DNA from: Solirubrum puertoriconensis
GTDB taxonomy: Bacteria > Bacteroidota > Bacteroidia > Cytophagales > Hymenobacteraceae
NCBI RefSeq assembly: GCF_001483135.1
Contig: NZ_LNAL01000003.1
Span: 124,001 to 188,000 of the forward strand
Direction: 5' to 3'
Length of the DNA: 64,000 nt
The position numbers were made by a program, and so were the translations under genes. Shown one piece after another: positions 38,200 through 53,446 of this stretch (the first letter of the stretch is position 1; the number at the start of each line of letters is the position of its first letter). The notes under the pieces are model-generated. The model saw only the letters and a program-made list of their open reading frames with translations, was not told where the DNA came from and ran no database searches.

Positions 38200-38568
38200 G
38201 GGGCTGACCGGAATTGACAGCTCGTGCAGGTCGCGAGTAAGCGTGTCGAGAGTTGGGTGAATCTCTCGCCAACAAATCATCCGAACAACAACTGGCGAGT
38301 ATAGCTACGCCATGGCTGCCTAGTCTAGGTACTAAGCAATAGCCATCATCCCGCATCCGTCTGCCTTATCACGGATGAGCACGGGGTGTCGAAAGAATAA
38401 GGATTGCCTAGGTGGCGCTGCGACGCCTAGGTGAACCTCTAGCAGATAAGGGTAACTCACAGGCCTGACGGGCGCCTAGGTTACCTCGAACAAATTAAGC
38501 TCGGATACACACGTAGAAAGCTCGACGGTCTCCTTGTCTGGACCAGGGTTCGACTCCCTGCAGCTCCA
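38200..38568 (+). ncRNA. ssrA: tmRNA (transfer-messenger RNA)
   Basis: The 5' end GGGGCTGACCGGAATTGACA and the 3' end GGTTCGACTCCCTGCAGCTCCA pair as the tRNA-like acceptor stem (GGGGCTG with CAGCTCC). The T-arm GGTTCGACTCC is intact; CCA is not fully encoded. The tag reading frame is at 38294-38323. It rescues stalled ribosomes with SmpB. The 3' 14 nt belong to the 57-bp att repeat of the inserted element. Three CCTAGG hexamers lie in the RNA (38401-38480), probably within pseudoknot stems. Confidence 0.95.
38294..38323 (+). other. tmRNA tag-peptide frame (GEYSYAMAA)
   Basis: Codons GGC GAG TAT AGC TAC GCC ATG GCT GCC then TAG give GEYSYAMAA-stop. The AMAA ending is a normal ClpXP-type degradation signal; the preceding residue is alanine added by the tRNA-like part. 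Confidence 0.88.
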
Positions 38569-38611
38569 CAATAAACCCTCCTTACGCCACCGTGGGGAGG
38601 GTTTTCTGTTT
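38555..38611 (+). repeat. attL: 57-bp direct repeat
   Basis: Starts TCCCTGCAGCTCCACAATAA (the last 14 bases of tmRNA first) and ends in the tmRNA terminator (stem ACCCTCC/GGAGGGT then TTTT). It is identical to 53390-53446. Integration there restores tmRNA and its terminator. Confidence 0.95.
38573..38605 (+). terminator. tmRNA terminator inside attL
   Basis: Stem AAACCCTCC/GGAGGGTTT with loop TTACGCCACCGTGG-like and a T-tract. The second copy at 53408-53440 now has no tmRNA upstream. Confidence 0.8.
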
Positions 38612-38614
38612 CTG

Positions 38615-38633
38615 GGGGTACAGCTAGGGGTAC
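38615..38633. promoter_or_regulatory. Candidate integrase arm site, left
   Basis: Two GGGGTAC repeats 12 bp apart start 4 bp inside attL. An almost identical pair lies near the right end (53244-53262). Pairs of short direct repeats near the core are typical integrase arm sites. Confidence 0.6.
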
Positions 38634-38659
38634 ACCTGGTATAAACCCGGCCTAATCTC

Positions 38660-38667
38660 TATCTTTG
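38660..38667 (+). promoter_or_regulatory. -7 box, left end of element
   Basis: TATCTTTG matches TAnnTTTG; a start about 7 bp later would give a transcript ending at the terminator at 38712-38751. Confidence 0.5.
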
Positions 38668-38673
38668 GTGGCG

Positions 38674-38751
38674 CCCTGAGCTGAGTTGTGCTAGCATCCG
38701 CTTAGACGCTTAAAGCCCCGCTGCCTAGTCGATAGGAGTGGGGCTTTTCTA
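38674..38751 (+). ncRNA. Candidate small RNA, left end of element
   Basis: About 78 nt between a TATCTTTG box and a terminator (AAAGCCCC/GGGGCTTT then TCT). No open frame. Unproven. Confidence 0.35.
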
Positions 38752-38766
38752 TTGCCGCTGAACAGC

Positions 38767-38814
38767 CAGAAAAAAAGATGTTTTTAGGCGTGCATTAACT
38801 ACACTTGCTGCACG
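38767..38814 (-). repeat. 48-bp motif, copy A
   Basis: On the minus strand it reads cg-TGCAGCAAG-TGTAGTTAA-TGCACGCCT-AAAAACATCTTTTTTTCTG. The three TGYA units are 9 bp apart. It lies 25 bp before the gene at 38839. Three more copies exist (44901, 49489, 51286). Confidence 0.8.
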
Positions 38815-38838
38815 AATCAAACAGCACTGCTCTCTAAA

Positions 38839-39231
38839 ATGGAAGCACCCGCAACTATTCTCATGAATCAAGCAATAGTCCACTTAGTAAGACTTATCGA
38901 TGCTTTTGAAGAAAATGAGGGCTGCTGGAAGAATTGGAGGGATTCATTGTTTGATCGCGAGTATCTAACGAGTGAATACAACGAGGATTTGGAAGCAATG
39001 AAGAAGTGCTATGAAAGCTCAAGACAGATTCAAGCAGAAATCCCGGGTGCCGCTGCGGCAGTGCTTACAGAATTGCCATCGGCTGTACAGTGGGCTGTAA
39101 AGGACTTTTCCAGAACATACCTGCTTACAGAGAGTAAAATATTTCAGTATTTCATTACAAAAGAAGGAGAGAAGATAACCGCATACCGTAAAACGAATCC
39201 ATCCTATGATGAAGGCATCCTAGCTAGGTGA
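38839..39231 (+). CDS. Element orphan protein, 130 aa
   Basis: Start MEAPATILMNQAIVHLVRLIDAFEE (a second Met at 38863 is possible). Mostly helical and charged (REYLTSEYNEDLEAMKKCYES). No domain is recognised. It is the first gene inside attL and follows motif copy A. Confidence 0.6.
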   Translation: MEAPATILMNQAIVHLVRLIDAFEENEGCWKNWRDSLFDREYLTSEYNEDLEAMKKCYESSRQIQAEIPGAAAAVLTELPSAVQWAVKDFSRTYLLTESKIFQYFITKEGEKITAYRKTNPSYDEGILAR

Positions 39232-39241
39232 CCAAACACCT

Positions 39242-39598
39242 ATGCCTAGCACCCGTGCTTACATCTTGCTTAGTCACCACTACTACCGGGGGCGCTCGTC
39301 AAAACTTTACTTGGTAGCTCCTCATCCCCTGGAGCAAGCGTGGAAAGCCAGGCGGGAAGTGAAAGCCAATGGAGGCGAAGTGCTGTTCTGTGATGCGCCG
39401 CAGCGGGCCAAGCCGTACCAGTTAATCAAGTGGGTAGGGCAGCATGTTAATAATGCGGGCTTCCACAATAGTGCGGGCTACACCAACTATCAACGCATAG
39501 AGAAACCAATGCGCGGCGTGGGCTCGGTGCAGGAGTCTTGGGCTACTGCAGTGGCAGCGCTGGGCAATCCTGTCGAAGTGCTAGTAGTGCGGGTATGA
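39242..39598 (+). CDS. Element orphan protein, 118 aa
   Basis: Start MPSTRAYILLSHHYYRGRSSKLYLV. Basic and aromatic-rich; no domain recognised. It is 10 bp downstream of the previous gene, so the two are probably cotranscribed. Confidence 0.6.
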   Translation: MPSTRAYILLSHHYYRGRSSKLYLVAPHPLEQAWKARREVKANGGEVLFCDAPQRAKPYQLIKWVGQHVNNAGFHNSAGYTNYQRIEKPMRGVGSVQESWATAVAALGNPVEVLVVRV

Positions 39599-39656
39599 AC
39601 CGGATTTGCGCATTTTTGAATTAAGAAGTATAAATAATAAAGACACTGCTTCACTA

Positions 39657-40277
39657 ATGAAAAAAACAGTGGCAATAGGCTTTATCTTATTGGTGTTAAT
39701 CCCGGCTCATGTAGCCGTAAGCAATTTTCACAATAACAATATGATTGGCTCATTTGTGAGCTGTAATGGCCGAGATATTCCTCAAGACTTTATCAATTCA
39801 ATAAATGAATTAAAGTATGTGACGGATCGTAATAACAAAGACATAGATACCAATAATCTTGATGATATGTACTACAATAGGGCTTTCATTTATGCACTAG
39901 AAGACTATACAAGCAAAAGTAATTGCTTTGATGTGGATAGGTATAATCATGATTTGTTTCAGGCTGCTTACATAGCTAAATACAACAAGTTTTGCGCTGT
40001 TGTTCTTGAAAGCGAAGGATTGTTTAAGATGAGATTGGTAAGTTCTTTTCAAAAACACAGGATCAAGTACAATCCTCTTAGCGTTGATAAGGTGTATGAT
40101 GTGATGTTAGCTGGGTACAGCAAATTCAAAAACGGAAATATTAATACTTATACTGAGAACTACATTCCTGATACGCCTTGGAACAGAGAGCTAGGATACA
40201 CCACAAGTAAGGTTCCGCATAAGTATAGATTTAATGCTTTTTCAAGGAACGGTAATCTTATCACAACTATCCGGTAA
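39657..40277 (+). CDS. AT-rich orphan with N-terminal membrane or signal segment
   Basis: 206 residues from MKKTVAIGFILLVLIPAHVAV, a signal or anchor segment. The rest (YNRAFIYALEDYTSKSNCFDV, VYDVMLAGYSKFKN) has no known domain. Its base composition is much more AT-rich than the core, which suggests recent acquisition. Terminated by the hairpin at 40292-40320. Confidence 0.6.
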   Translation: MKKTVAIGFILLVLIPAHVAVSNFHNNNMIGSFVSCNGRDIPQDFINSINELKYVTDRNNKDIDTNNLDDMYYNRAFIYALEDYTSKSNCFDVDRYNHDLFQAAYIAKYNKFCAVVLESEGLFKMRLVSSFQKHRIKYNPLSVDKVYDVMLAGYSKFKNGNINTYTENYIPDTPWNRELGYTTSKVPHKYRFNAFSRNGNLITTIR

Positions 40278-40291
40278 GGTTAGCAATAAAT

Positions 40292-40320
40292 AAGGCTCCA
40301 GCTTTTCGCCAGAGCCTTTT
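40292..40320. terminator. Bidirectional terminator
   Basis: AAGGCTC/GAGCCTT stem with T-runs both sides, between the convergent 39657 and 40322 genes. Confidence 0.8.
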
Positions 40321-40321
40321 G

Positions 40322-40840
40322 CTACGCTTTGTTTGTATGAGCCTCAAGCTTAGTCTGTATCCGCTCCAGCCATTCAAGCTCTTCATCAGTAAGTATACTG
40401 AGGTCGTATTGTGGCTGCGCTTTGATGGTAGCGTTTACATCAACCGCTGAGCGGTCCTTGTACTTCTCGGGGCGGTGCGCCTTCAGCAGCGTAACGGCTA
40501 GCGTGTCGCTGAAAACCGGCTCGCAGTAGGGCTCTCCCGTTACCGGGTGAGGAATAGACTTGCCGTCTTTGGTGAACTGGTAGCTGATGTTTTCGCCCTT
40601 GGCCCGGGCCCAGCAAGCTTCTTCCAGGCTGTCGACTCCTTCTTCCAAAGCTTCTTCCCATTCAGCGGCAAATTCGGGATCTGCTTTGCGGCATTGCCGG
40701 GCCCATTCACGGCTGATTCCCGCTACGCGGGCCGCACGACTGATGTTAGGCGACTGGCTTAGCGCTTCTAGGAAGGGCTTGCGCCAAGCTGCTAGTGGCC
40801 GATCTTCGGCGGGTTGGGGTAAGGTATTTTCGTTGCTCAT
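40322..40840 (-). CDS. Terminase small subunit-like protein
   Basis: 172 residues. The N-terminal helix-turn-helix ALSQSPNISRAARVAGISREWARQCRKADPEFAAEWEEALEEG matches terminase small subunits, which recognise packaging sites on phage DNA. The rest (DTLAVTLLKAHRPEKYKD) is also typical of this group. No large subunit is encoded in the element; in PICIs such a lone TerS redirects the helper-phage packaging machine. Last gene of the long minus-strand cluster. Confidence 0.75.
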   Translation of the reverse strand: MSNENTLPQPAEDRPLAAWRKPFLEALSQSPNISRAARVAGISREWARQCRKADPEFAAEWEEALEEGVDSLEEACWARAKGENISYQFTKDGKSIPHPVTGEPYCEPVFSDTLAVTLLKAHRPEKYKDRSAVDVNATIKAQPQYDLSILTDEELEWLERIQTKLEAHTNKA

Positions 40841-41026
40841 ATGTTGATGCGTTGGTTAAGAATGCAGCTGCTTGGTTGGTCTGCGTGCCTTGATTAGTGG
40901 CCGCGTGGCTAGCGGCCTACCGTTGCTGATGATGGTAATGCTTTTCACGGGTGCGGCTTATGAGCTTGAGTTGCGAGAGAAAAAGAAACAGGGAGTGAGC
41001 CTGTGTAAGGCCCGCTCCGCATGGCC

Positions 41027-42973
41027 TTAGAAGGTGGGCACGTCCACGACGTTGGCAGCCTCGATGCGCGGGTTTTGCACGTAATTGCTGGTAATGCTCA
41101 TGGCCACGTCCAGCCAGCAGGGGAAGTTGACGGCAATGTTCCACGTAGCCATTGGCGCTGTCTCCGTTCCGAAGTAAGCTTCCACGCGGTCGGTGTATAC
41201 CCACAGCGCAAAGTCCCAGGTAGCACCCGGCGTAGAGGTGAAGGGGCGAATGGTGCCGAGCGACTGCGCAAACGTCCACTTGTTGAACTCCGAGCCGCCG
41301 AACTCAAGGCCGATTTTCAAGTCGGTAAAGCTGGTCCCAGTAGGCGCGTCGCTAATGCCGATGAACATGGAGCCTGTTTGCCCAGTCGTGACGTACTGAA
41401 TGCCGCGCAGCCCCGGTATGCCTTTGTAATCCGTAGCGCTGGCGCCAATGCCTTTCGTCGTGGTTGCCCCGCCGGCGTAGGAGGCGTTGCCATTGATGCC
41501 TACGCGCTTGTTGGCTGCGTCGTAAGTGGCAATGCCGGCCACGTTTTTCCAGTCAATGGCCTGGATGGAAGATGTAGGCGGAGCTGCCGCGCCGTAAGTG
41601 CTGCGGTCAGGCAGGGCCACGCCTTTAGTCAAGTTCAGGATGTAGTCGGCTACGATGCGGCCCAGCACGTCGAATCCTTTGTCTTTCAGATGCACGAGCA
41701 TGTGGCGGTTGCCGCCGGTTTCGCCGTAGTATGGGTTGTTGTCGGCCAAGTAGCCCGTGACATCGTAGGAGCCGCCAATAAGGGGGCTGGTCAGGATGGG
41801 CTGGTATGAAGAGTAATCAGTATCCCCCCCGAAGTCTGCTGCGCCTTGCGAACCAATCAGCGACTTGCCGCCGTCGAGGTCGATGTAGGTTGCGCCCAAC
41901 GCCGCCAACTCGTTTTTCAAGCGTAGGTTGGTGGCTTTGTGCAAGCGGCCTTCCTGGTCCCAACCCGAGCCCCAACCGGGTACGACAGTTTTGGGCAGCG
42001 TGCTAATCCAGAACACCTTCCAGGCACCGGCGGCGTAGCACTGCTGCACCCATTGCTTCACCTTGTCAACGTAGGCGTTGCCGCCGGCCGTTAGGCTTTG
42101 CGTGGCCTTGTCCCAGAAGCCCTGGTCGCCCAGCGAGTTGGTGCCTTCCATGCCCACAACGATGTTGCCGCGCCCGCTCACCATGCGGTTAGTGACGCGG
42201 TTGGCAAAATCACCCAGCATGTTGTCGATGCCCCAGCCCGACACGCCGCCGTTGTAGTGCAGGTAGTCGCCTTCACCCGAAAGGAAGGCAGCCGTACGCG
42301 CTGGGTACGAATCGCCCCGGTGCTCTACGTTGGAGTTGCCGCCGTAAATGACGTTGTAGGTAGAAAAGGTAGGGGCAGCAACGGCGCTAATAGCCGGGCT
42401 AGGCGCCCAGGATGAAGCATTGCGGCCCGTGGCGGCCTTTACGCGGAACTCCCATTTACCAGCGGCATGTGCGCTGTTATCGATGCTCTGTGCCGCGTAA
42501 GGCTGGGCAGCCCCGCCACTCACGCGGTATTCCAGCTCAGTGGTGCCGAGCGCGTGCGTAGCGGAGAGTACGCGGGTGCTGGTGTTGAAGCTAACCGTGG
42601 GGGCGGCGGGCGTAGTATTGGCGGGTGGTGTGGTAGCTATGGGCGTGCACACGAGCTGGCCTTGCGCCTGCTGCAGCGCGGCGTTATAAGCCTTTGTGTT
42701 GGCCTCGGCCTGGGTGCTGCCGCTGTACTGGCCGGCTCCCACGGTAATCGTCTTGCTGCCTGTGTAGCCGCTGCCGCAAGTAGCGGTGGCCGTCTGTACG
42801 GTGTTGTATACCGGGCCCGTGGTTGAGCCCCCCGATTGCAGCTTGTTCACTACGCTAATCAGTTGGTTCAAGCGGTCTACAATCTGGTTGACGTCGTCCG
42901 CTGAAATCTCCGTGCTGGGGTCCATGACCGGTACCAGGTCCTGTTTCGGTACTATGTTTAAGGGTTCAATCAT
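41027..42973 (-). CDS. Phage tail-type protein with SGNH-hydrolase domain
   Basis: 648 residues. N-terminal coiled segment (SADDVNQIVDRLNQLISVVNKLQ), then a DUF5977-like repeat (GAGQYSGSTQAEANTKAYNAALQQ) and a fibronectin-like stretch. The middle has SGNH-type blocks (nucleophile candidate in IYGGNSNVEHRGDSYPART; VVGMEGTNSLGD; catalytic His in MLVHLKDKGFDVLG). The C-terminal part is a beta-rich domain. It could be a receptor-binding or polysaccharide-cleaving tail protein, or a surface enzyme; SGNH assignment is moderate. Confidence 0.7.
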   Translation of the reverse strand: MIEPLNIVPKQDLVPVMDPSTEISADDVNQIVDRLNQLISVVNKLQSGGSTTGPVYNTVQTATATCGSGYTGSKTITVGAGQYSGSTQAEANTKAYNAALQQAQGQLVCTPIATTPPANTTPAAPTVSFNTSTRVLSATHALGTTELEYRVSGGAAQPYAAQSIDNSAHAAGKWEFRVKAATGRNASSWAPSPAISAVAAPTFSTYNVIYGGNSNVEHRGDSYPARTAAFLSGEGDYLHYNGGVSGWGIDNMLGDFANRVTNRMVSGRGNIVVGMEGTNSLGDQGFWDKATQSLTAGGNAYVDKVKQWVQQCYAAGAWKVFWISTLPKTVVPGWGSGWDQEGRLHKATNLRLKNELAALGATYIDLDGGKSLIGSQGAADFGGDTDYSSYQPILTSPLIGGSYDVTGYLADNNPYYGETGGNRHMLVHLKDKGFDVLGRIVADYILNLTKGVALPDRSTYGAAAPPTSSIQAIDWKNVAGIATYDAANKRVGINGNASYAGGATTTKGIGASATDYKGIPGLRGIQYVTTGQTGSMFIGISDAPTGTSFTDLKIGLEFGGSEFNKWTFAQSLGTIRPFTSTPGATWDFALWVYTDRVEAYFGTETAPMATWNIAVNFPCWLDVAMSITSNYVQNPRIEAANVVDVPTF

Positions 42974-43057
42974 CTTGATTGGTGGAGTTGGGGTGAAGGG
43001 TGGTTAGGGGCCGCCGCAGGCTTGGACTCCGGAGCGGCGGCCTCTAGCCAATGGGTA

Positions 43058-43738
43058 TTACTTGCGGGCTAGCTTGCTCTCGAACTTGCCGCCCTTGATG
43101 CGCTCCAGGTTGCTGTAGATCATGTGCTCATTGGGCACAATGGGCCCGTCGTGGCTTTCGCTCTTGAAGTAGTCGGCCAGCTTGCCAAACGCTTGGTAAA
43201 TCGAAGCGCTACTATCCCGGGAGGAATGAATCATTTCACGCGCCATCTCCAGCTCCTTGCCTAGCTTTTGGAAGTAGGCCAGCACGTGCTCGTTGCCCTT
43301 CCAATTGAAAGTGTGCTTGTCGAGGTATGCTGCTAGGTTCAAGCCAAATTCAGAAGCGAAAGTGGACAACGGCATTTCTCGTTCGGGCATCATCAAGCCG
43401 GATCCGGCACTGATCATGATGCGGCTGAAGGCCGTTTTAATGGCCGCTACTTGCTTCTCGATCTGCTCGACTACCTCGTAGCCGTCCAGGTTAATGGTTT
43501 CGGCTACGAGCTTCTCTTGCGCCTCTTCGGTGCGCAGCATTTCAAAGCGCATTTTCAGGCCCGCGTCAACCGTGAGCAGCTGGGCAAAGAGCTTGTTGCG
43601 AATGGCCGTTTTCAGAGTGGGCACACATACTGAAAGGGGTAGCTCGTTAGCCTCGAGCAGTTGGCGGTAGGTGGCGCACTGTTCGATGAAAGCGCGCTGG
43701 GCGGTTTGGGCTTGTTGGTTTTCCTGTTGGGTCAACAT
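43058..43738 (-). CDS. Element hypothetical protein, 226 aa
   Basis: Helical, charged protein (LTQQENQQAQTAQRAFIEQCA, AGLKMRFEMLRTEEAQEKLV). No domain recognised. Lies in the minus-strand cluster between the SGNH protein and the Toprim-like protein. Confidence 0.6.
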   Translation of the reverse strand: MLTQQENQQAQTAQRAFIEQCATYRQLLEANELPLSVCVPTLKTAIRNKLFAQLLTVDAGLKMRFEMLRTEEAQEKLVAETINLDGYEVVEQIEKQVAAIKTAFSRIMISAGSGLMMPEREMPLSTFASEFGLNLAAYLDKHTFNWKGNEHVLAYFQKLGKELEMAREMIHSSRDSSASIYQAFGKLADYFKSESHDGPIVPNEHMIYSNLERIKGGKFESKLARK

Positions 43739-43820: not shown

Positions 43821-44903
43821 CTAGTGCTCATTCCAGCTCGGCGGAAAGCCTTCCCATTGCGTGAGCAGCAGGTCAGCTAGGTCAATGCCTTGCTGTTTCT
43901 GCTCTTCGGTTGCGCCCTTCTCGAGCAGGTCGGATACTTCAATCTTGAAGCCTTGCCTGCGCAGCTTTTCGGCGGCGGCGCTCCATTCCTGGTAAGCGCG
44001 GCCGTTCTCCGAAGCATCCGGGAACAGGACGATGCCGCGGCCCCTGAGCGGCGTCAGGCGTGAATCATTGAGGTAAGACAGTGCCCCAACGGCTAGCCAA
44101 GTGAAGCCCGGGAAATATGGCGTGCACAGCACGGCCGTTTTAGGAGCCTCCACTATTGCCACCGGCATATCGAGCGGGGCGGTGGTGAGCTGCGGCAAGC
44201 CAAACAGGCAGGGGCTTTTGCTGCCCGCTTCGATGTAGTCAGTCAGCCACCCGGGCAGGGGTTGGCTTTTGCGTTGGTAGTGCGCACTAAGGGCCGTGTG
44301 TACCCAGCTGGTACGCCGGCGCACGCTGCCATCGGCGGCTACTGCTTTGACCGTGTGGCCTTCTTCATCAAACTGTACCACTTGCCCGCCGCGTACGCGC
44401 TGCTGCTCATCTACCAGCCAGAACACGCAGGCCCCGTTCCAGTAAGCAGAGGTGCCGATCTGAAAACGAAGCAGCAGCTCAGCAGCTACGCCCGCGCCGA
44501 AGTGCGACTGCAGCAAGCGAGCAAAGCGATTGCGCTCGTATTGCCCCATGGACTGCTCGAGCAGGTGCGCCGGCAAGGTGCTGGGCTTCGCCGCGGGTGC
44601 CGCTGGCTTGAGGGCGTTTCGCCCGCGCGTTAGGGTGGCAACTGGTGACAAGTGGTTAGCCGCGCGGTGCTCCTGGTGCACCCGCTCTTTGTAGCTCAGG
44701 CCGTCCGCTTCAATATGGTAGGGGCTGCGGTGGTAGCCGCACTTCTCTTCGCGGTTGCAGCGCCCGTACTCGGCTGGTAGTGCTTCGTTGGTGCGCCGAT
44801 CGATGTAGGGCGCTAAGGTGCGCTTGCCGCCGCAGTTCGGGCAATCCAAGCGCGTTGCCGGGCCCCCGTAGGGACGCAGCTGGTAGCGGTAAGGCTTAGC
44901 CAT
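43821..44903 (-). CDS. Zinc-finger/Toprim-like primase-associated protein (DUF6371 type)
   Basis: 360 residues. N-terminal zinc finger LDCPNCGGKRTLAPYID...CNREEKCGYH and a C-terminal Toprim-like region (PVAIVEAPKTAVLCTPYFPGFTWLAVGAL, GRGIVLFPDASENGRAYQEW). It is the DUF6371-type partner found next to helicases in Bacteroidota mobile elements. Its ATG is the last three bases of motif copy B. Together with the helicase gene it supplies priming and unwinding. Confidence 0.75.
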   Translation of the reverse strand: MAKPYRYQLRPYGGPATRLDCPNCGGKRTLAPYIDRRTNEALPAEYGRCNREEKCGYHRSPYHIEADGLSYKERVHQEHRAANHLSPVATLTRGRNALKPAAPAAKPSTLPAHLLEQSMGQYERNRFARLLQSHFGAGVAAELLLRFQIGTSAYWNGACVFWLVDEQQRVRGGQVVQFDEEGHTVKAVAADGSVRRRTSWVHTALSAHYQRKSQPLPGWLTDYIEAGSKSPCLFGLPQLTTAPLDMPVAIVEAPKTAVLCTPYFPGFTWLAVGALSYLNDSRLTPLRGRGIVLFPDASENGRAYQEWSAAAEKLRRQGFKIEVSDLLEKGATEEQKQQGIDLADLLLTQWEGFPPSWNEH

Positions 44904-44948
44904 AAAAAAAGATGTTTTTAGGCGTACACTTTCTGCACTAGCTGCACG
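44901..44948 (-). repeat. 48-bp motif, copy B
   Basis: Minus-strand motif with TGCA/TGCA/TGTA units 9 bp apart, then CTAAAAACATCTTTTTTTATG, whose ATG is the start codon of the zinc-finger/Toprim protein. It is the only sequence between that gene and the helicase stop (44950). Confidence 0.8.
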
Positions 44949-46496: not shown

Positions 46497-46844
46497 TTAC
46501 CGGCGGTCGCTAATCGCGTAGGCCAGCTCTTTGATTTCGAGCGGGGAAAGCATCGGTGCCAGGCTGCGGATTTCGCGCCGGCGCAGAATGGCGGCCGTTT
46601 GGCCATCGGGCTGAGCAAGGCACAGGCACGGGGCGCCCGGGTGGCTCAGCTTATTCTCCAGAAGTTGGAAGTAGTACACGCCACCGTAGCCGTTTAGGCG
46701 CACGAGCAGCCACTGCCCGGACTCCAGGCTAGCCCATTTGGCAGGCGGGAACGGTTTACCGGCGTACTGGGCAGCGGCACCGGTAAAGAGCTGGAGTTGG
46801 CCTGCTGCAGTCACACCCCAGCGCGAACGATCAGGATTAGCCAC
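46497..46844 (-). CDS. Element hypothetical protein, 115 aa
   Basis: Start MANPDRSRWGVTAAGQLQLFTG. Beta-rich, with VRLNGYGGVYYFQLLENKL. No domain recognised. It overlaps the upstream HTH gene by 8 bp, so translation is coupled. Confidence 0.6.
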   Translation of the reverse strand: MANPDRSRWGVTAAGQLQLFTGAAAQYAGKPFPPAKWASLESGQWLLVRLNGYGGVYYFQLLENKLSHPGAPCLCLAQPDGQTAAILRRREIRSLAPMLSPLEIKELAYAISDRR

Positions 46845-47151
46845 GACGGCGCCCTCCTTTCTGGCTGCGTTGCTGGCTCTGCAGGCTGTTAAGAAGCTCC
46901 AGCCGTTTTATAAATGAGCGGCCACCGATTTTATGGTACGGCAGTAGCCCCTTCCGTTTCCAGGAGTGCACGCACCTTGCGCTTACATCAAGCAAAGCAG
47001 CCGCTTGATTAACTGTCAGTAGCTCTTCTGTTTCTGCCGTGGGAGCAGGTGCGCTCGTACCCGCTTGCTGCAGCTCGTAGCGGACTACCGCCCGAACCTG
47101 CTCCATTAGTTCAGCTAGGGTTATACCAGCCGTAATAATTGTGGTGTGCAT
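46837..47151 (-). CDS. Helix-turn-helix (excisionase/MerR-like) protein
   Basis: 104 residues from ATG 47151 (MHTTIITAGITLAELMEQV). The HTH is LLTVNQAAALLDVSARCVHSWKRKGLLPYHKIGGRSFIKRLEL, an HTH_17/AlpA-type. Possible excisionase or regulator. Overlaps the 46497 gene by 8 bp. Confidence 0.7.
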   Translation of the reverse strand: MHTTIITAGITLAELMEQVRAVVRYELQQAGTSAPAPTAETEELLTVNQAAALLDVSARCVHSWKRKGLLPYHKIGGRSFIKRLELLNSLQSQQRSQKGGRRRG

Positions 47152-47323
47152 GGTGCCTTTGGCCCCCATTAGTGGGAGTATACCCCTAAAAGGGCGCACC
47201 GTTCACCTGTTGCTAATAGTTGTGCACTTTTTAGCACACACCGCCACCTCAAACTGAGTTTACAGCTAATAGACAGGGTTTTATTAGCGAAAAAAAGTTC
47301 TTGCAGAGACTTGCGAGGCGGTA

Positions 47324-47665
47324 TTAGCCTGCTGTTGAAGGTCCAGTATCCCGATCTATTTGCATCAGGTGTACCCGCAACTTCTCTTCTTTGTCGAGCA
47401 TCGCCACTTCGCTACACCAGTACACTTCCTGTTTCTCCAGTTCCTCCACGCGTGTTTCTACCCGCTCCAACAGCTTCTCGAGAAGCTTGGCGCTGGGCTT
47501 TCCTGGGCACAACGCCGTAACAGTGCCGCGTGTCGAGCGGAACGTTACTTCTACCGGCTCATCGAGAATGAAGGCGCGCTGTATTTCTTTTAAAGATGCT
47601 TGCTCTGCCCGGGCTGCGTTCAGGTAAGCAACGGCCTCGTGTAGTTCTTTCTGTGCGTAGTTCAT
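47324..47665 (-). CDS. Element hypothetical protein, 113 aa
   Basis: Coiled-coil type (LLEKLLERVETRVEELEKQEV). Starts MNYAQKELHEAVAYLNAAR. No known domain. Part of the leftward operon, 12 bp after the 47678 gene. Confidence 0.55.
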   Translation of the reverse strand: MNYAQKELHEAVAYLNAARAEQASLKEIQRAFILDEPVEVTFRSTRGTVTALCPGKPSAKLLEKLLERVETRVEELEKQEVYWCSEVAMLDKEEKLRVHLMQIDRDTGPSTAG

Positions 47666-47677
47666 CGGTAGAGCAGA

Positions 47678-48043
47678 TTAGCGGTTAAGGGCAGAAATGA
47701 AAGTGCAGGTACCTTCGGCGTACGCCAGCTGAAGCGATTCTTCGCGCTCATTGCGTAGGCGGTACACGTTGCGGAACCAGCGCTGCAGCTGGGCTATGCA
47801 CTGGCATTGCTCAATGCTTTCGGCAGTGCGCTGGCGTTCGACAGGAGAGAAGACCGGCGAGTCTTCTACTAAGGCCAGGACGTTGGTGCGCATCGAGCGC
47901 AGCGTAGCCGCGGCCATTACGGCGCGGGCCTTTTCATCTTTGAGGCGATGCTGCTCTTTTAAGAAGTTGCCCAGCGGACCTTTGTAGCGGGGCATAGAGG
48001 CGGCAACTGTTAACGCAGTTGCGGCGGTAGCAATAGCTTGCAT
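47678..48043 (-). CDS. Element hypothetical protein, 121 aa, first gene of leftward operon
   Basis: Start MQAIATAATALTVAASMPRYKGPLG; charged helical remainder (RLRNEREESLQLAYAEGT). No domain recognised. It is the first gene after the leftward promoter at 48152, and is thus likely to be an early gene of the element. Confidence 0.55.
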   Translation of the reverse strand: MQAIATAATALTVAASMPRYKGPLGNFLKEQHRLKDEKARAVMAAATLRSMRTNVLALVEDSPVFSPVERQRTAESIEQCQCIAQLQRWFRNVYRLRNEREESLQLAYAEGTCTFISALNR

Positions 48044-48151: not shown

Positions 48152-48239
48152 CAAAGGTAGTATACTTCTTGTGAAACACAAGTGTTTTATATGTGTATCA
48201 CAAAAATATTTTGCTACATACACTAGTGTTGTATATTTG
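48152..48239. promoter_or_regulatory. Divergent promoter pair with two ACACWAGTGT operators
   Basis: Rightward: TTTG 48210-48213, TATATTTG 48232-48239 (18 bp apart); transcription start falls on or near the ATG at 48244, so leaderless. Leftward: TACCTTTG (48152-48159). Palindromes ACACAAGTGT (48176-48185) and ACACTAGTGT (48220-48229) are 44 bp apart; one lies over the likely leftward -33 region and the other between the rightward boxes. CTTGTG-AAA-CACAAG (48168-48182) extends the first. Confidence 0.75.
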
Positions 48240-48243
48240 CAGT

Positions 48244-48411
48244 ATGGATAATGATAAGCAGCAGAAGTCGCGTAAGCCCCAAATAGGGGTTGAGGTTACA
48301 GCAGAAGAGAAAGCCACTATCGAGAAGGTAGCTAAGGCTAAGGGTATGCGTGCTGCTACTCTGTTGCGCACCTTGGCTCTAGATGAAGCCCGCCGGCTTG
48401 GCATAGCTTAA
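48244..48411 (+). CDS. Ribbon-helix-helix-type small repressor
   Basis: 55 residues: after basic KQQKSRKPQ come IGVEVTAEEKATIEKVAKAKG and AATLLRTLALDEARRLG. The beta-strand (IGVEVT) followed by two helices is that of Arc/CopG-type repressors. ATG at 48244 lies right after the -7 box. Divergently transcribed from the leftward replication operon, so it is the best master-repressor candidate. Followed by a strong terminator. Confidence 0.7.
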   Translation: MDNDKQQKSRKPQIGVEVTAEEKATIEKVAKAKGMRAATLLRTLALDEARRLGIA

Positions 48412-48416
48412 ATAGA

Positions 48417-48462
48417 AGCATGAAAAAAGCCTCAGTTGCTATACTGAGGCTTTTTTCATGCT
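48417..48462. terminator. Terminator of the small repressor
   Basis: Long perfect stem AGCATGAAAAAAGCCTCAGT and its inverse (loop TGCTAT), with T6 within the stem on both strands. Confidence 0.92.
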
Positions 48463-48538
48463 GGATTAACTGCCTCGGTAAAAGCAGATTAAGATTTAGG
48501 AAACTTGATATTGGTAAATATCGTTATACTTGCAACGT

Positions 48539-48610
48539 GACCTGCCTAAGTCCTGTGACTTTTGCCGGGCCACGACAAAGCCCCCGGTTTTTAACCGGGG
48601 CATTTTTTTT
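48539..48610 (+). ncRNA. Candidate small RNA with promoter, operator and terminator
   Basis: TTG (48505) and TATACTTG (48525-48532) form a promoter, with GATATT-GGTA-AATATC overlapping it. About 70 nt later comes CCCCGGTT-TTT-AACCGGGG followed by CATTTTTTTT (48580-48610). No open frame is present. It lies directly after the repressor terminator, so it is a separate transcript if real. Confidence 0.4.
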
Positions 48611-49364
48611 ATACCCTAACTATGCCTTGGGCATCGCGTCCCGAAGCCTCTTTCACACACATACTATCAAGGGTGTCGAAGAGAAGGTGAAAACCAAACT
48701 TTTTAAGGCTGCCTTTAGGGTACTCTTTTCGATATAAACAGAAGGCTATTACATCAACTGCTTGAATAAAGAAGGAGTGTGTTGATGATCTATAGAATAT
48801 GTCCTCAATTACATTAGTTATTACAGGATTGTGATAGCCTCCAAATCGAGATTCTACGGGGTTGTAGACGCGCATTCCTCGCAACAGCCTCCGCAATGTG
48901 GGCTCACTTGAATCGTCAGAAACGATGATGCCTTTGCTTTTGTTCTTCTTTAAGAAGGTGTCATAGCGTTGAATTAAGCGCTTCCAAGCTAGCTCTTGCA
49001 TGCCCGAGCTATACTTGGACTGGCTAATATGTTCCTTGTCTAGACAGATATTAATTAGTCTTCCATTGGGAAACATGTTGCACATTTCGGCAACGAAAAG
49101 ACGAATTATGTTTACCCTATCCGACTTATGAATGCGTTTGTAAGCCTCTACTTTGTGAGGGCGAATCATTTCCGAGCTGTGAATTTCTTCGCGCTTGTTT
49201 AATCCATATGCTTTCTGGATCATTTCGCGAAACTTTACCAATCGCTGGACACACTCATTCCAGTCTTCAATGGAAATTATAAGACCGCTTAGGATAAAAT
49301 GAGGCGAATTCTGTCCATTATAAGGACCAGGATCACCGCTCTCATCCACATACATTATGTACAT
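48609..49364 (-). CDS. DUF3800 protein (RNase H-like fold)
   Basis: 251 residues. MYIMYVDESGDPG at the start carries the first acidic residues, and SFFIQAVDVIAFCLYR near the end carries another Asp: the conserved marks of DUF3800. These proteins are common cargo of mobile elements and defence islands and are predicted nuclease-like. AT-rich compared with the core. Terminates into the 48580 hairpin. Confidence 0.85.
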   Translation of the reverse strand: MYIMYVDESGDPGPYNGQNSPHFILSGLIISIEDWNECVQRLVKFREMIQKAYGLNKREEIHSSEMIRPHKVEAYKRIHKSDRVNIIRLFVAEMCNMFPNGRLINICLDKEHISQSKYSSGMQELAWKRLIQRYDTFLKKNKSKGIIVSDDSSEPTLRRLLRGMRVYNPVESRFGGYHNPVITNVIEDIFYRSSTHSFFIQAVDVIAFCLYRKEYPKGSLKKFGFHLLFDTLDSMCVKEASGRDAQGIVRV

Positions 49365-49437
49365 TCTTGCCTTTGCTAAATGAGTACAACGTTAACATGG
49401 AAGTTGTGTATACCAAAGCGAAAGCAGCTATAGAGTA

Positions 49438-49476
49438 AGAAACGCCCCGCCGGCCGCTAAGCCAGTGGGGCGTTTC
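49438..49476. terminator. Terminator, AAACGCCCC hairpin
   Basis: GAAACGCCCC/GGGGCGTTTC stem. It lies upstream of the DUF3800 start and of the 49545 gene, so it must end a rightward transcript from further left or isolate the two. Confidence 0.7.
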
Positions 49477-49488
49477 TCATTTAAGAGT

Positions 49489-49536
49489 TGTGTAGCATGT
49501 GTAGCTAATGCACACCTGAAAACATCTTTTTTTCTA
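49489..49536 (+). repeat. 48-bp motif, copy C
   Basis: TGTA/TGTA/TGCA units 9 bp apart, then ACCTGAAAACATCTTTTTTTCTA. It ends 8 bp before the GTG start of the excisionase-like gene. Confidence 0.8.
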
Positions 49537-49544
49537 GCCTCATC

Positions 49545-49808
49545 GTGGACATAAAAGCAGTACTCAGCTTATCAGGCCCACTCGAGCAGATGCTCATCAT
49601 CGAAGCCGCCAAGCACTACGCCAAAGTGAAAGCTGAGCAGGAGGCGCTAGGCCAAGTATATACTGTGGCAGAGCTAGGCAAGCGTATCAAGTGCGGGAAA
49701 ACGAAGGCTTACGAGCTAGTACGCGCTGGGATAATCCGCAGTCAGCAGGTGGGCGGGAGGTATATAGTAAGTGAGCGGGCAGTGAGGGAGTGGATGGGGG
49801 ATATCTAA
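49545..49808 (+). CDS. Excisionase-like HTH protein
   Basis: 87 residues, GTG start at 49545. The C-terminal half VYTVAELGKRIKCGKTKAYELVRAGIIRSQQVGGRYIVSERAVREWM is a Xis/AlpA-type HTH_17. It probably directs excision with the integrase or regulates it. Directly preceded by motif copy C, which may be its own binding site. Confidence 0.8.
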   Translation: MDIKAVLSLSGPLEQMLIIEAAKHYAKVKAEQEALGQVYTVAELGKRIKCGKTKAYELVRAGIIRSQQVGGRYIVSERAVREWMGDI

Positions 49809-49833
49809 TAAAATATTGACCCTTCAAATACAA

Positions 49834-51225
49834 CTATTTTTTCACAGCACTAATCAATTCAGTAGCTGTAGTTTTTAGGGCAGTAGCTGTTTCAGCTACG
49901 CTCTTTGTCGCATCAACTAAATGTTGACTGCTCACGGGAGTTATGTTTGCCTGCTTTCCAATAGATGGAGGTGAATATATTCCTTGAATTGTATTAATTA
50001 GCATTGAAGTCTTATGATCTGCATCATGAATCATTGCTGAGTATGCGGTGACAGTTCTTGCTACAGCTGATTTGAATGCATATTCTTCCTGAAGGTTACG
50101 CTCTTTTGTATACTGTGCTATAGTAAAGTACATAAGAATAAAGGCAGGGGCAGTACGGGTGATATTTAATAAAGTAAGCGACCAGTTGAATCCAGAAGGG
50201 TCTTTGTAGCTGTTGAATATATAGATGACCCAACACAGAGCAAGCCCTGTAATAACTACTGCAGCTGCAGCCCAAATCATAGTTGGTTTAAATAACGCCT
50301 TGCTGCGTTGATCAAAGGTGTGCCCCAAAGCTCCGTCAGCAGCGTAGCCAAGTAGTTCCTCGATTCTTGATTGGCTTCCGAGTATAGATGCCTCTTTGCT
50401 TTGGGCATTGGTCAGAGTATTATCAAACGATGTTGAAGTACTCTGTAACTGAGTAATCCAGTGCTCAGACTCAGATTTCAATGTATTGAAATCATCTCTA
50501 ATAGCTTCGAAAGCTTTTCTATCGGCGTTGTGAGCAGCTTTAGATTCTGCCAGCATCTGCTTTTGTTGCTCAGCGAAAGCAGCGGATGCGGCATTGTTCG
50601 TGCTGGCCTCCGTATTATGAGTTCTTATTTCGTTAAGAAGCGTGTCTGATTGTATTTGGTTTTTCAATATTGTGCCAAATTCTTGTTTTTTATCATTTAT
50701 AAGGCTTTCCAAGTCGGTCTTAGCTTTTTCTAGCTCCTTGTATAATGTATTTGCTTTATTAATCGCTGATTCTAGTTCTTTCGCTGTTGCCGCATTCAAA
50801 ATATTGGCTTGAGCAATTTTCAATTCGTCAATCGAATGAACTTTGTGTTTAGATTTATCCCAAAATCCTAATTGCATTTGATATCGTGCTAGCCACAATA
50901 CTTGGGATTGTATATTATCAAATGAATAGCCCCCATCTAAATGCGAGACTAGATGCTGAAGGATTTGATTAAGTGAATACTGTCCTATTTCCAGATCATT
51001 GTATTGATAAGGCATGATCTGCCAGTTGCCTTTATCCAGTTCTACTCTTAATTGTTTAATAGATCTATTGGTTATTCCTATAAACTCGACAACTGTTATA
51101 TCACCACCAACCATGGTGTGGCGTATGTCCTTGCTGGTATAAACTTGTTTGGCTTTGTCCGTTAGGTCAATTTGTTCAAGTTGAGTAAGAAGTTTATCAA
51201 CGTTCGCTTTTTGCGGCGTGGTCAT
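49834..51225 (-). CDS. Coiled-coil protein with two membrane helices, cargo
   Basis: 463 residues. Coiled coil at about 140-270 (KANTLYKELEKAKTDLESLIND, QKQMLAESKAAHNADRKAF). Two hydrophobic helices at about 313-338 (MIWAAAAVVITGLALCWVIYIF) and 356-371. QYTKERNLQEEYAFKSAVARTVTAYS follows. It is AT-rich and no family can be named. A membrane anti-phage effector or a structural coiled coil are both possible. Confidence 0.7.
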   Translation of the reverse strand: MTTPQKANVDKLLTQLEQIDLTDKAKQVYTSKDIRHTMVGGDITVVEFIGITNRSIKQLRVELDKGNWQIMPYQYNDLEIGQYSLNQILQHLVSHLDGGYSFDNIQSQVLWLARYQMQLGFWDKSKHKVHSIDELKIAQANILNAATAKELESAINKANTLYKELEKAKTDLESLINDKKQEFGTILKNQIQSDTLLNEIRTHNTEASTNNAASAAFAEQQKQMLAESKAAHNADRKAFEAIRDDFNTLKSESEHWITQLQSTSTSFDNTLTNAQSKEASILGSQSRIEELLGYAADGALGHTFDQRSKALFKPTMIWAAAAVVITGLALCWVIYIFNSYKDPSGFNWSLTLLNITRTAPAFILMYFTIAQYTKERNLQEEYAFKSAVARTVTAYSAMIHDADHKTSMLINTIQGIYSPPSIGKQANITPVSSQHLVDATKSVAETATALKTTATELISAVKK

Positions 51226-51285
51226 AAATTAGGTAATGGAGTAACTGATATAGCTTTGTACTATATCTATGGCCCCGCAATCTAC

Positions 51286-51333
51286 GATGCAGCAAGTGTA
51301 GCCAATGCACGGCTAAAAAGATCTTTTTTTCTG
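51286..51333 (+). repeat. 48-bp motif, copy D
   Basis: TGCA/TGTA/TGCA units 9 bp apart, then GGCTAAAAAGATCTTTTTTTCTG. It lies 60 bp upstream of the minus-strand coiled-coil gene and far from any plus-strand start. Confidence 0.8.
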
Positions 51334-51494
51334 TCGCGCTGCTTTGCCACTGTCAGCAACTCGGGAACCTAGTTAGTTTAATCAGGTCTCGCTATGCGAG
51401 TACAGTCTTGAGGCTTGAGGCAGCTACCGCTACGGTCGTGCACAATTCAGTGATAGCACTGATGTGCGATGCTGAGTGAAGGATCAACTTACTC

Positions 51495-51893
51495 ATGAAC
51501 CAAATCATTACTTCTATGCCTACTGTAGCTTCCCTCATCAAACTAGCCCCAGGGCAGAGGCTTGACCTTGAAGCAAATTTCAATGGTGAATGCGAGAATG
51601 TAGTTCTCGTAACTCAGAATGGTGCTAATCAAGTTTGTAATTGGAATAGCACCGTTCCAAGCTCATATAGGGCATCATTCACGAACAATACAACAGATAG
51701 AATTGAAACGTATGAAATCCAAGGACTCAGCAAGCAGGCGCCTGAAGGAGGGTTCCCCTTTGTAGAATCCCAGCCATACATAGTGGAAGCGTTGTGTGAA
51801 GCTCTTTCAACTACTATTGTGTTAGGATACGACGACATAGCCGGCGACCGTGATTTTAACGACGCTGTTGTCACTGCCAAAGTATCGTTATAG
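51495..51893 (+). CDS. Small protein with DUF4114-like motif
   Basis: 132 residues. The C-terminus GYDDIAGDRDFNDAVVTAKV resembles the Ca-binding end of DUF4114 domains (GxEDLxxGDRDFNDVVV). The N-terminal part has no known domain. No signal peptide. Closed by the terminator at 51913. Confidence 0.65.
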   Translation: MNQIITSMPTVASLIKLAPGQRLDLEANFNGECENVVLVTQNGANQVCNWNSTVPSSYRASFTNNTTDRIETYEIQGLSKQAPEGGFPFVESQPYIVEALCEALSTTIVLGYDDIAGDRDFNDAVVTAKVSL

Positions 51894-51912
51894 CGGCAGG
51901 CTCCCGTCATCA

Positions 51913-51943
51913 CAAAGCCCTGACCAACTGGTTAGGGCTTTTC
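51913..51943. terminator. Bidirectional terminator before integrase
   Basis: AAAGCCCT.ACCA/TGGT.AGGGCTTT stem between the 51495 gene and the integrase stop (51957). Confidence 0.8.
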
Positions 51944-51956
51944 AATATCATCTATT

Positions 51957-53198
51957 TTACTTCGCCACTTTCAGCAACTGGGGCATGTCGTACACCTTAG
52001 CAAACTCCCGTTCTACTGCTTGCTCCGTGATGTTGACGTAGCGCTGGAAGGCCCGCCAAGTACGGTGCCCGGTAATCTTCATTACCAGCTCAGGCCGTAA
52101 GCCCCGCTCCAGGCTCAGTGTAACAAACGTACGGCGGCCGGTGTGGCAGCCCAGCTTCTCCCACTTGGCTACTGTCTGACTGGAGCGATTGCCCGCTTTG
52201 TACTTGATGATTTCAATAGGATCAGTAATGCCCGCCAGCTGCCCCAATTCTTTGAGGTAGTCGTTTAGCTTCTGATTCGTAATCAGCCGTACCCCACCGG
52301 CTAAGTAGCGAGTAACAATGATCAGCGCCCGGGCCTGTAGCGGTATGCTGATAATCTCCCTAGTCTTTTGCGTAGTGATGCGCAGCGTATTGCCCCGTAA
52401 GTGCTCAGCACGGATGCTTACTAGGTCCGAGTAGCGCAGTCCAGTATAGCAGCTGAGCAGGAACAGTGCGCGGGCATTCTCCAAGTAAGACCCTTCGGTC
52501 AGCTCCAGCGCCTCGAGTCGGGCTACCTCTTCAGCGGTCAGCGTCATAATATCCGGCTCCTGTCGCTTCCACTTCATCTTCTCCCAGCCGCGTGCCTCGG
52601 TGTACCCCCGATCAACAGCAAAGCGCATAAAGCGCCGCAGCCGGTCAAAGTGCTTGGCTATGGTGTTGTCGGTAAGATCAGCCGGGCCCATGAGGTAGGC
52701 GGTATAGGCATCGGCAAAGGCCGGTGTGATGGTATCAAAGTCGACGGCGTACCCCGTAGCTTTTTCAAAGTCTTGAAGGTGGCGCAGCGTCGTATTGCCG
52801 GCTCGAGCCGTGCCCACCTTACCTCGGGCCAAGGTCAGCTGCACCCATTCAGTATAGTACTCGGCAAACGTCTTGCGCTGCGCTTTCGGGTTGGGCGCTG
52901 GAGCTTGGGGGGCGGCTAGTTCGCGCAGTACTTCCGGGCTGGGTAGTAAGCCCAAGGCGCGCTGTTCGTCACAATAGGCAAGTAATTGCTTCGCCAGCAA
53001 GTCCAGCGCATCATTCAGTGCGCCGTTCTGCTGATAACCTCGTTCCTGAGCCCTCTGCTCGGCTTTGATCCACTGCTTGGGCAGGATGCTGAGGCCGGTG
53101 TAAACTTTGGTGCGTTGCCCGCTGCAACTGACTAAGGCAATGATGGCCGTGGGGATGGTAGCGTCAGGCCGCTTCAGGTGAAAGGAGACAGAAGCCAT
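51957..53198 (-). CDS. int: Tyrosine recombinase (integrase)
   Basis: 413 residues from ATG 53198 (MASVSFHLKRPDATIPTAI). N-terminal arm-binding region, core-binding SAM-like domain, catalytic domain with Arg255 (TGLRYSDL), His352-Arg355 (HTGRRTFVT), His378 (GHRTW) and Tyr387 (FQRYVNI). Bacteroidota phage-integrase type. It is the gene nearest to attR, the normal place for the enzyme that inserts at ssrA. The GGGGTAC pair lies upstream of its start. Confidence 0.95.
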   Translation of the reverse strand: MASVSFHLKRPDATIPTAIIALVSCSGQRTKVYTGLSILPKQWIKAEQRAQERGYQQNGALNDALDLLAKQLLAYCDEQRALGLLPSPEVLRELAAPQAPAPNPKAQRKTFAEYYTEWVQLTLARGKVGTARAGNTTLRHLQDFEKATGYAVDFDTITPAFADAYTAYLMGPADLTDNTIAKHFDRLRRFMRFAVDRGYTEARGWEKMKWKRQEPDIMTLTAEEVARLEALELTEGSYLENARALFLLSCYTGLRYSDLVSIRAEHLRGNTLRITTQKTREIISIPLQARALIIVTRYLAGGVRLITNQKLNDYLKELGQLAGITDPIEIIKYKAGNRSSQTVAKWEKLGCHTGRRTFVTLSLERGLRPELVMKITGHRTWRAFQRYVNITEQAVEREFAKVYDMPQLLKVAK

Positions 53199-53236
53199 GG
53201 GGTAGGAGTTGTGCCAGGCTAAAGCTAGTGAAAGTT

Positions 53237-53262
53237 GTACCCTGGGGTACGGCTGGGGGTAC
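53237..53262. promoter_or_regulatory. Candidate integrase arm site, right
   Basis: GGGGTAC at 53244-53250 and 53256-53262, again 12 bp apart, and an inverted GTACCC at 53237-53242. Of the 19 bases of the pair, 17 match the left copy. Confidence 0.6.
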
Positions 53263-53389
53263 AAAAACGCTCATTTATTAGCACCCAAACTCCTCTATCT
53301 TCACAACTGACACACAGAATATGCTTCAACAGTCTGCATTGAGGCATGTTTGAGTGAGATTAACTACTGTTTCAATGATGAGGTGTAAG

Positions 53390-53446
53390 TCCCTGCAGCT
53401 CCACAATAAACCCTCCTTACGCCACCGTGGGGAGGGTTTTCTGTTT
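53390..53446 (+). repeat. attR: 57-bp direct repeat
   Basis: Identical to 38555-38611; includes a fragment of the tmRNA 3' end and a copy of its terminator. The chromosomal sequence resumes at 53447. Confidence 0.95.

Follow-up and report, generated by a model that had tools for sequence, protein, structure and literature searches.

A probable phage satellite in ssrA of Solirubrum puertoriconensis and its relatives with differing virion genes in Hymenobacteraceae

Phage-inducible chromosomal islands (PICIs) commonly combine an integrase acting at an att site, a regulatory switch, a primase, a lone small terminase subunit (TerS) and accessory cargo, and they have no capsid set. P4 integrates at RNA genes and has iterons near its replication gene, P4-like satellites carry genes of the sid/psu/delta type, and capsid-forming PICIs (cf-PICIs) make their own capsid. 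Here we describe an element at the ssrA gene of Solirubrum puertoriconensis (Bacteroidota, Hymenobacteraceae) which is probably a phage satellite, as judged from its sequence. It lies in a stretch of 64,000 nucleotides (contig NZ_LNAL01000003.1, positions 124,001 to 188,000), called the window throughout. Passages of PMC11364771 give PICIs a size of about 10-15 kb, map them with int, regulator, replication and packaging genes and describe an interference with tail assembly. PLE11 of Vibrio cholerae, one of the PICI-like elements (PLEs), encodes a tape measure, a tail assembly chaperone and a baseplate hub and builds chimeric tails, and putative tape-measure (tmp) genes are reported in parts of the same paper for PLE-like elements and for cf-PICIs (PMC12987554; for cf-PICIs in the legend of Extended Data Fig. 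10). The string 'Bacteroid' is absent from the main text of PMC12987554, passages of a review on hitchers (PMC11389934) mention Bacteroides solely for NBU-type elements, and no description of a phage satellite in Bacteroidota, Bacteroidetes or Hymenobacter occurs in the titles and abstract openings of the papers that searches of an open-licence collection brought up.

The element spans 14,835 bp (spacing of the repeats) at the 3' end of ssrA. It is bounded by perfect 57-bp direct repeats, as an earlier interpretation made from the letters alone (the sequence-only reading) had stated for about 14.8 kb. The leftward genes follow the order integrase, small regulators, excisionase-like helix-turn-helix (HTH) protein, P4-family primase, Zn-ribbon/DUF6371 protein, E226, D648 and TerS, with cargo open reading frames (ORFs) at both ends (Table 1), and all genes could be read as whole ORFs. 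Searches of the 18 ORFs against PHROGs and Pfam recognised no capsid, portal, large terminase subunit (TerL) or lysis set inside the element, which agrees with the previous claim for the first three; the tail-fibre-like D648 is the virion-type exception. TerS alone gave a strong head or packaging match in PHROGs (phrog_4044, 6.9e-21), while the HTH protein at 46837 matched weakly (phrog_57, 0.0015). The tyrosine recombinase beside attR (Phage_int_SAM_5 and Phage_integrase), the two excisionase-like HTH proteins (HTH_17), the lone TerS-like protein and the P4-type primase-helicase (TIGR01613, 160.8 bits vs a cut-off of 108.7) had all been named by the sequence-only reading and were found again. 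Its inventory is extended here by D648 and E226, by the Zn-ribbon/DUF6371 protein, by 45-bp iteron arms at four dispersed places and, near both ends, by putative arm sites of the integrase.

The gene ssrA is present in all eight genomes of the genus, and in the 20 kb around it none of the 18 window proteins is encoded in any of the seven congeners (tblastn, 1e-4), so that the sites without the element asked for by the sequence-only reading do exist. Capsid or portal genes just outside the repeats were not met: in a DNA comparison the flanks (30001-38199 and 53447-64000, outside the PHROGs scan) match the congener chromosomes in part, the left flank in 7/7 and the right flank in 6/7. The exception on the right is G001 (G numbers denote genomes), where an integrase with 44% identity and one internal stop lies about 17.6 kb beyond ssrA. 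Integrase relatives with E values of 1e-60 or below occur in 75 of 204 genomes of the family, the own genome counted, the closest one being encoded at ssrA of G055 (Hymenobacter sp. BT18). Since the element is absent around ssrA in all seven congeners and a related one sits at ssrA in another genus, it is, by these comparisons, mobile on an evolutionary scale. It is this mobility, together with an own replication gene, a packaging gene and the lack of a virion set, on which the satellite reading is based.

E226 is encoded at 13 places in 12/204 family genomes, and ten of these places were read in context (those in G111, G097 and G005 were left out). Searches of Pfam, PHROGs, NCBIfam and PADLOC gave nothing significant for it, and no relative was found in 50,697 phage records or, with back-translated patterns only, in IMG/VR. 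An order-level sample of 390 genomes contained three strong matches within the family of the window and one weak match outside, and a scan of genome contigs gave 3 loci, all in Hymenobacter. Seven of the elements with E226 (window, G055, G022, G027a, G059, G044b and G027b) are 12.1-15.1 kb long and lie at ssrA or at tRNA-Arg, -Val, -Met, -Phe or -Ser, with 13-57-bp repeats of the RNA-gene 3' end; three further ones, all at tRNA-Glu, measure 6.7-7.3 kb. The G055 element shares with the window the integrase (80% identity), the ribbon-helix-helix (RHH) protein (80%), the HTH proteins (60 and 61%), E226 (39%) and two small proteins (58 and 48%), and differs in a BT4734-like replication gene and in other late genes. 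Of the integrase-TerS-primase set that the sequence-only reading proposed to look for at ssrA, the integrase is found there, together with other replication and late genes.

Virion or packaging genes occur in six of the ten E226 elements, and they differ in kind from element to element. The late genes of the window element are TerS and D648. G044b (tRNA-Phe) carries TerS and a 494-aa TerL (53.5% to the TerL of locus L025, see below) and, within its 15.1 kb, nothing related to the portal or head gene of L025. A tape measure is present in G027a (tRNA-Val; phrog_27166, 2.6e-34) and a baseplate hub in G059 (tRNA-Met; phrog_4930, 7.7e-60). A 774-aa protein of G055 and a 767-aa protein of G022, 64% identical to each other, were left unnamed by PHROGs and, for G055, by Pfam. 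They show local matches to the tape measures of two prophages resident in the window genome (G055: C8, 27.5%, 7e-13, and C7, 30%, 7.7e-15; G022: C8, 30.5%, 1.6e-12); because these prophage tape measures were themselves named by size and gene order, we infer rather than observe that both proteins are tape measures. G045 (tRNA-Phe), an element in which no E226 was found, encodes a 68% relative of the G027a tape measure. Outside the window, capsid absence was judged by comparison with the genes of L025 and of prophage C8. A 250-aa gene of G055 is not claimed as a tail chaperone; weakly similar prophage genes adjoin terL. Close to the tape-measure-like gene of the G055 satellite lies a gene for a protein with sigma-70 region 2 (L131, 5688-6269), possibly a late-gene sigma factor.

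Compared at the sequence level, these elements are a family of 12-15-kb tRNA/ssrA elements in Hymenobacteraceae which share regulators and E226. Behind E226 there would be a place for one or two helper-type parts, i.e. TerS, TerS-TerL, tape measure, baseplate hub or receptor-binding fibre. We propose with reserve, and with the balance somewhat against it, that this is a swappable slot by which each satellite would rebuild the helper particle at another point, and that the window element would re-target particles with an own fibre matched to a resident prophage. Packaging, tail-length, baseplate and fibre parts seem to be exchanged among satellites with a common core of integrase and regulators, and the question why satellites steal given virion functions thereby becomes directly testable. 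If the satellite reading is true, phage satellites are extended to Bacteroidota.

Relatives of the window TerS were detected in 9/204 family genomes, own genome included. It is 49-52% identical to the TerS of L025/G041, G061, G076 and G052, where the next gene encodes TerL. L025 comprises TerS, TerL, portal and head families and agrees at 99-100% with the locus in G041. In seven of nine other genomic places (G037, G041, two in G044, G052, G061 and G076), TerS is directly adjoined by a relative of the L025 TerL; of these seven, G044b is satellite-like itself. None was found beside TerS in the two remaining places, G027 and G126, and the contig of the latter stops about 0.8 kb past TerS. Portal and head relatives follow TerS-TerL in G041, G061 and G076 only. 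Elsewhere, TerS relatives were limited to 4 weak phage records and one IMG/VR locus. Judged by these neighbourhoods, likely TerL partners exist within the family, though not closely in the window genome, and packaging of the element through TerS is likely. The idea of a satellite TerS with a diverged DNA-binding half and a conserved TerL-binding half was rejected, as the identities to four phage TerS amount to 47-55% for residues 14-60, 52-58% for 61-110 and 45-50% for 111-166.

D648 exhibits a single long match, to gene 32 (827 aa) of the resident prophage G000:C8: the identity is 57% over 452 aa (residues 196-647 of D648). Residues 200-460, 66.5% identical to gene 32, were found nowhere else among the loci compared. 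Further matches in 12 family genomes comprise short stretches only, mostly of residues 50-215, and residues 1-55 have no convincing match save a weak one starting at residue 28. In the prophage, gene 32 follows the tail genes and precedes genes that resemble a lysis cassette by reading, a position usual for tail fibres. This homology and this gene place make D648 a tail-fibre-like protein. No relative was found in IMG/VR (back-translated patterns only) or in the 50,697 phage records, and the latter gave no match to the prophage fibre, either. Motifs noted by eye would suggest an SGNH esterase for D648, but this had no support from Pfam, PDB sequences or NCBIfam and is not claimed. Prophage C8 extends from about 1358848 to 1400702 (L127-L129; approximate ends), roughly 42 kb with tRNA-Cys on one side and an integrase-like gene on the other; besides TerS (phrog_1482), TerL and the D648-like gene it contains a tape-measure-like gene of 1087 aa. 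The second resident prophage (G000:C7, L213-L216) is 36.4 kb long and has 22-bp repeats at its ends (295921 and 332381). A region of G123 (C1, 589700-629699; L180, L204), whose ends were not found, combines an integrase of 70% identity that has one internal stop, a tape-measure-like gene of 961 aa and a gene of 1652 aa that in part resembles the prophage fibre.

Compared by description, not by protein sets, the window element resembles PICIs (SaPIs, Gram-negative PICIs) in size, integrase at att, predicted regulatory switch, primase, lone TerS, missing capsid set and cargo. It differs in the phylum, the P4-family primase with its probable DUF6371 partner, the probable RHH repressor, the tail-fibre-like gene and E226. 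Because of the fibre-like gene and the P4-family primase it is not simply a TerS-only PICI; the name PICI-like, given to it by the sequence-only reading, holds for the predicted way of working and not as a proven membership. P4-like satellites share with it the primase-helicase family (TIGR01613), the integration at RNA genes and iterons near the replication gene. Unlike them, it contains TerS, and no capsid-sizing or polarity gene and no sid/psu/delta-type family was named in its ORFs by PHROGs or Pfam. A tape measure or a hub, known from PLE11, also occurs among the relatives of the window element, an analogy by gene type and not by comparison of PLE proteins; the window element itself has TerS and a fibre-like gene instead, in another host phylum and at other integration sites. 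From cf-PICIs, some of which have putative tape-measure genes like its relatives (PMC12987554, in part), it is set apart by the lack of own capsid genes. In packaging it would thus resemble a PICI, and in tail piracy its relatives would resemble a PLE; it is a proven member of neither. Tape-measure piracy in PLEs is already published; the phylum, the exchanged parts, E226 and the fibre gene look new, and searches of an open-licence collection for satellites with fibre genes brought up no clearly relevant paper.

A scheme can be drawn up from these genes. Upon helper infection or prophage induction the RHH repressor would be relieved, integrase and HTH protein would excise the element at ssrA, and the primase would replicate it from the iterons. 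TerS would then recruit a TerL of the L025 type, the kind adjoining its relatives in Hymenobacteraceae phages, and direct the DNA into helper heads. D648 might be placed in the particle instead of, or beside, the helper fibre, giving a chimeric virion by analogy to PLEs with their own tape measure; we regard its incorporation as a fair guess that is slightly more apt to fail than to hold. E226, encoded just before the late genes, would probably have its place in a piracy step if it takes part at all, yet such a role is doubtful.

We detected a divergent arrangement in which the RHH gene faces the leftward operon, so that the repressor switch of the sequence-only reading stands as to its layout, the repressor role being predicted. 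The intergenic region upstream of RHH contains a palindrome, ACACAAGTGT, common to the window and G055 (by eye), the RHH proteins of which are 80% identical. G022 and G044b, with RHH proteins 75% identical to each other, instead share AAATGTAAAGACAAAA in this region (by eye). As the intergenic sites change along with the RHH protein, a function as repressor fits. The 113-aa small protein has relatives of 48-62% identity in G055, G022 and G044b, and the 121-aa protein of 54-58% in G022 and G055.

In G055 the exact att match is limited to 15 nt, TCCCTGCAGCTCCAC, the last 15 nt of ssrA, so these are the likely crossover core. The window ssrA ends at 38569 or 38571 (ARAGORN, Rfam RF00023), and its last 15-17 nt are covered by the left repeat, the rest of which is sequence behind ssrA. 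Pairs of GGGGTAC with 12-bp spacing lie 60/72 bp inside attL and 146/134 bp inside attR. They recur at both att sites, with distances within 1 bp, in G055, G083 and G067 and partially in G059 and G086, and are read as putative integrase arm sites; the att sites of the window look intact. When att matches were compared with random sequence windows, with the window and G083 among the sequences sampled, 2/400 reached the match of the window element and 4/400 that of G059 (may be true att copies), and 0-3/400 those of the other six elements.

The primase module is present in 17/204 family genomes at high similarity, and 16 relatives from the family, 46-57% identical, were compared (G157 and G197, E ~3e-4, were left out); back-translated patterns, the only search made there, revealed none in IMG/VR. 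In 14/16 relatives two arms in inverted orientation stand no more than 260 bp 3' of the primase or slightly overlap its end; such a pair is missing in G167 and in G009, which is degenerate. Each arm consists of three RCAY units at 9-bp steps with A/T-rich sequence outside, and the pair is read as a putative replication origin, which offers a short exact candidate origin for the P4-type primase module. Over 17 elements, 29 arm sites occurred in 5.1 kb beside the primase vs 9 in 632 kb elsewhere, three of the nine being the other window arms. The exact pattern from the four window arms occurs at those 4 places only in the 4.8-Mb genome. These counts describe and do not test, since the RCAY pattern was loosened after the first matches and the four-arm pattern was built from the window arms. 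The three other window arms lie about 25, 125 and 60 bp upstream of cargo genes and may tie cargo expression to replication.

Flanking repeats overlapping a tRNA were found for 7/16 primase relatives (G005, G041, G136, G173, G009, G012 and G083). Checked relatives carry type I restriction-modification (R-M) genes (G173, G005) or Dnd genes (G041) as cargo, and TerS was seen in G185 alone, from another family (phrog_51, 9.5e-35). Together with a weak match of the RHH protein to the NikA-like mobilisation family (1.5e-5, below cut-off), this would suit an integrative mobilisable element or a defence island which is transferred through conjugation in trans and keeps TerS and the fibre-like protein, captured from phages, as anti-phage decoys. 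We consider this unlikely: Pfam revealed no relaxase among the 18 window ORFs, the RHH relatives occur in elements with TerS-TerL or tape-measure-like genes, the position of RHH fits a repressor switch, and the majority of the E226 elements bear virion or packaging genes as described above. Among known defence genes, only a weak match of the 463-aa protein to LmuB (0.0035) was obtained, from 10 of the 18 ORFs run against PADLOC. The G185 TerS is encoded at G185:C7:12488-12994 (L046), in an element whose ends were not found. The primase-family element of G041 (C7, about 880-909 kb; L028, L029) sits at tRNA-Gly with DndA, DndB, DndC and DndD/PbeC-like genes, in a genome that also harbours the L025-type prophage.

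Several points weigh against a satellite that uses phage particles in the proposed way. The replication module by itself is no satellite mark, given the single TerS and the R-M or Dnd cargo just described, and the window holds a single iteron arm where its relatives have a pair. Four of the ten E226 elements (G027b, G060, G039, G103) are without a recognised virion gene. The GGGGTAC pairs are absent, single or partial in G022, G027a, G044b, G027b and G045, and 3/400 random windows reached the 13-bp att match of G027a, with the same figure for the 14-bp match of G044b. In the host genome, the sole match to the L025 TerL (31-32%) is in prophage C7, so there is no close TerL partner, and prophage C8, bearer of the D648 relative, uses another TerS family (phrog_1482). 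With the C7 TerL distant and the C8 TerS of another family, no single helper is identified for both TerS and D648. The DNA-binding part of the window TerS shows no special divergence, and the fibre role of D648 is drawn from one long homologue plus its place. Structure models of E226 (4 sequences; mean predicted local distance difference test, pLDDT, 58) and of D648 196-648 (single sequence; pLDDT 34.5) were poor and not used. Excision, mobilisation and packaging by a helper are predicted. A decayed prophage that lost its structural genes and kept integrase, primase and TerS would explain why these three match PHROGs and why integrase relatives in G037 and G104 are found close to TerS or to a BT4734-type primase, in regions that are longer and phage-like. 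It is very unlikely in view of the compact layout of 12-15 kb with att repeats that recurs at different sites and genomes with different virion genes, the whole genes of the window and the absence of E226 from phage records (pattern-limited for IMG/VR); nor was any full-length phage found in which this integrase, E226 and TerS go together with a capsid set.

Table 1. Features of the ssrA element and its target (window coordinates)
Feature	Position	Strand	Evidence
ssrA (tmRNA), integration target, 3' end retained at left junction	38200..38571	+	ARAGORN, Rfam RF00023
attL, 57-bp repeat; likely core 38555-38569	38555..38611	+	repeat comparison, G055
two putative integrase arm-type sites GGGGTAC, attL +60 and +72	38615..38633	+	within 1 bp same places in G055, G083, G067, G059
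iteron arm 1 (A-rich block and 3x RCAY at 9-bp steps)	38769..38813	+	pattern comparison
three cargo ORFs (130, 118, 223 aa), no family	38839..40277	+	ORF calls, family and PADLOC scans
TerS	40322..40840	-	phrog_4044 6.9e-21; 51% to L025 TerS
D648, 648-aa tail-fibre-like protein beside TerS	41027..42973	-	homology to prophage C8 gene; DUF5977 below cut-off
E226, conserved orphan of these satellites	43058..43738	-	present in 12/204 family genomes
Zn-ribbon and DUF6371 protein, probable primase partner	43821..44903	-	Pfam; PG0870_Nterm
iteron arm 2, at place of relatives' paired putative origin	44903..44947	+	comparison with primase relatives
P4-family primase-helicase (D5_N, DUF5906)	44950..46443	-	Pfam, PHROGs, TIGR01613
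HTH_17 excisionase-like protein, probable recombination directionality factor	46837..47199	-	Pfam, PHROGs, NCBIfam
two conserved small satellite proteins (113, 121 aa)	47324..48043	-	relatives in E226 elements
RHH protein (~55 aa), probable repressor of divergent operon	48244..48411	+	NikA-like 1.5e-5, below cut-off; 80% in G055
DUF3800 cargo	48609..49364	-	PF12686 7.8e-22
iteron arm 3	49490..49534	-	pattern comparison
second HTH_17 protein	49545..49808	+	Pfam; 61% in G055
463-aa cargo protein, coiled-coil and membrane-like by eye	49834..51225	-	weak LmuB, TrlF, SMC matches only
iteron arm 4	51287..51331	-	pattern comparison
tyrosine integrase (start may be 53198)	51957..53264	-	Phage_int_SAM_5, Phage_integrase; 78-80% in G055
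two putative integrase arm-type sites GGGGTAC, attR -146 and -134	53244..53262	+	comparison with related elements
attR, 57-bp repeat; likely core 53390-53404	53390..53446	+	repeat comparison, G055

The GC content is 0.40-0.44 in 1-kb windows from 48 to 52 kb, and mostly about 0.6 in the flanks. In G055 the two att copies are followed by different hairpin-like terminators (judged by eye), which suggests that the element supplies ssrA with a new terminator. In the window the same terminator sequence stands behind both att copies; six of the seven congeners have other sequences at this position, and that of G001 resembles the window's. An earlier occupation of the window site by a like element would explain both the identical terminators and the likeness to G001. 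In G001 a different element probably occupies ssrA (C6, 69805-89064), with the broken 44%-identical integrase and a 1468-aa gene that is efflux-pump-like by eye. Just upstream of the window ssrA we detected a perfect 20-bp inverted repeat, hairpin-like, at 38068-38113.

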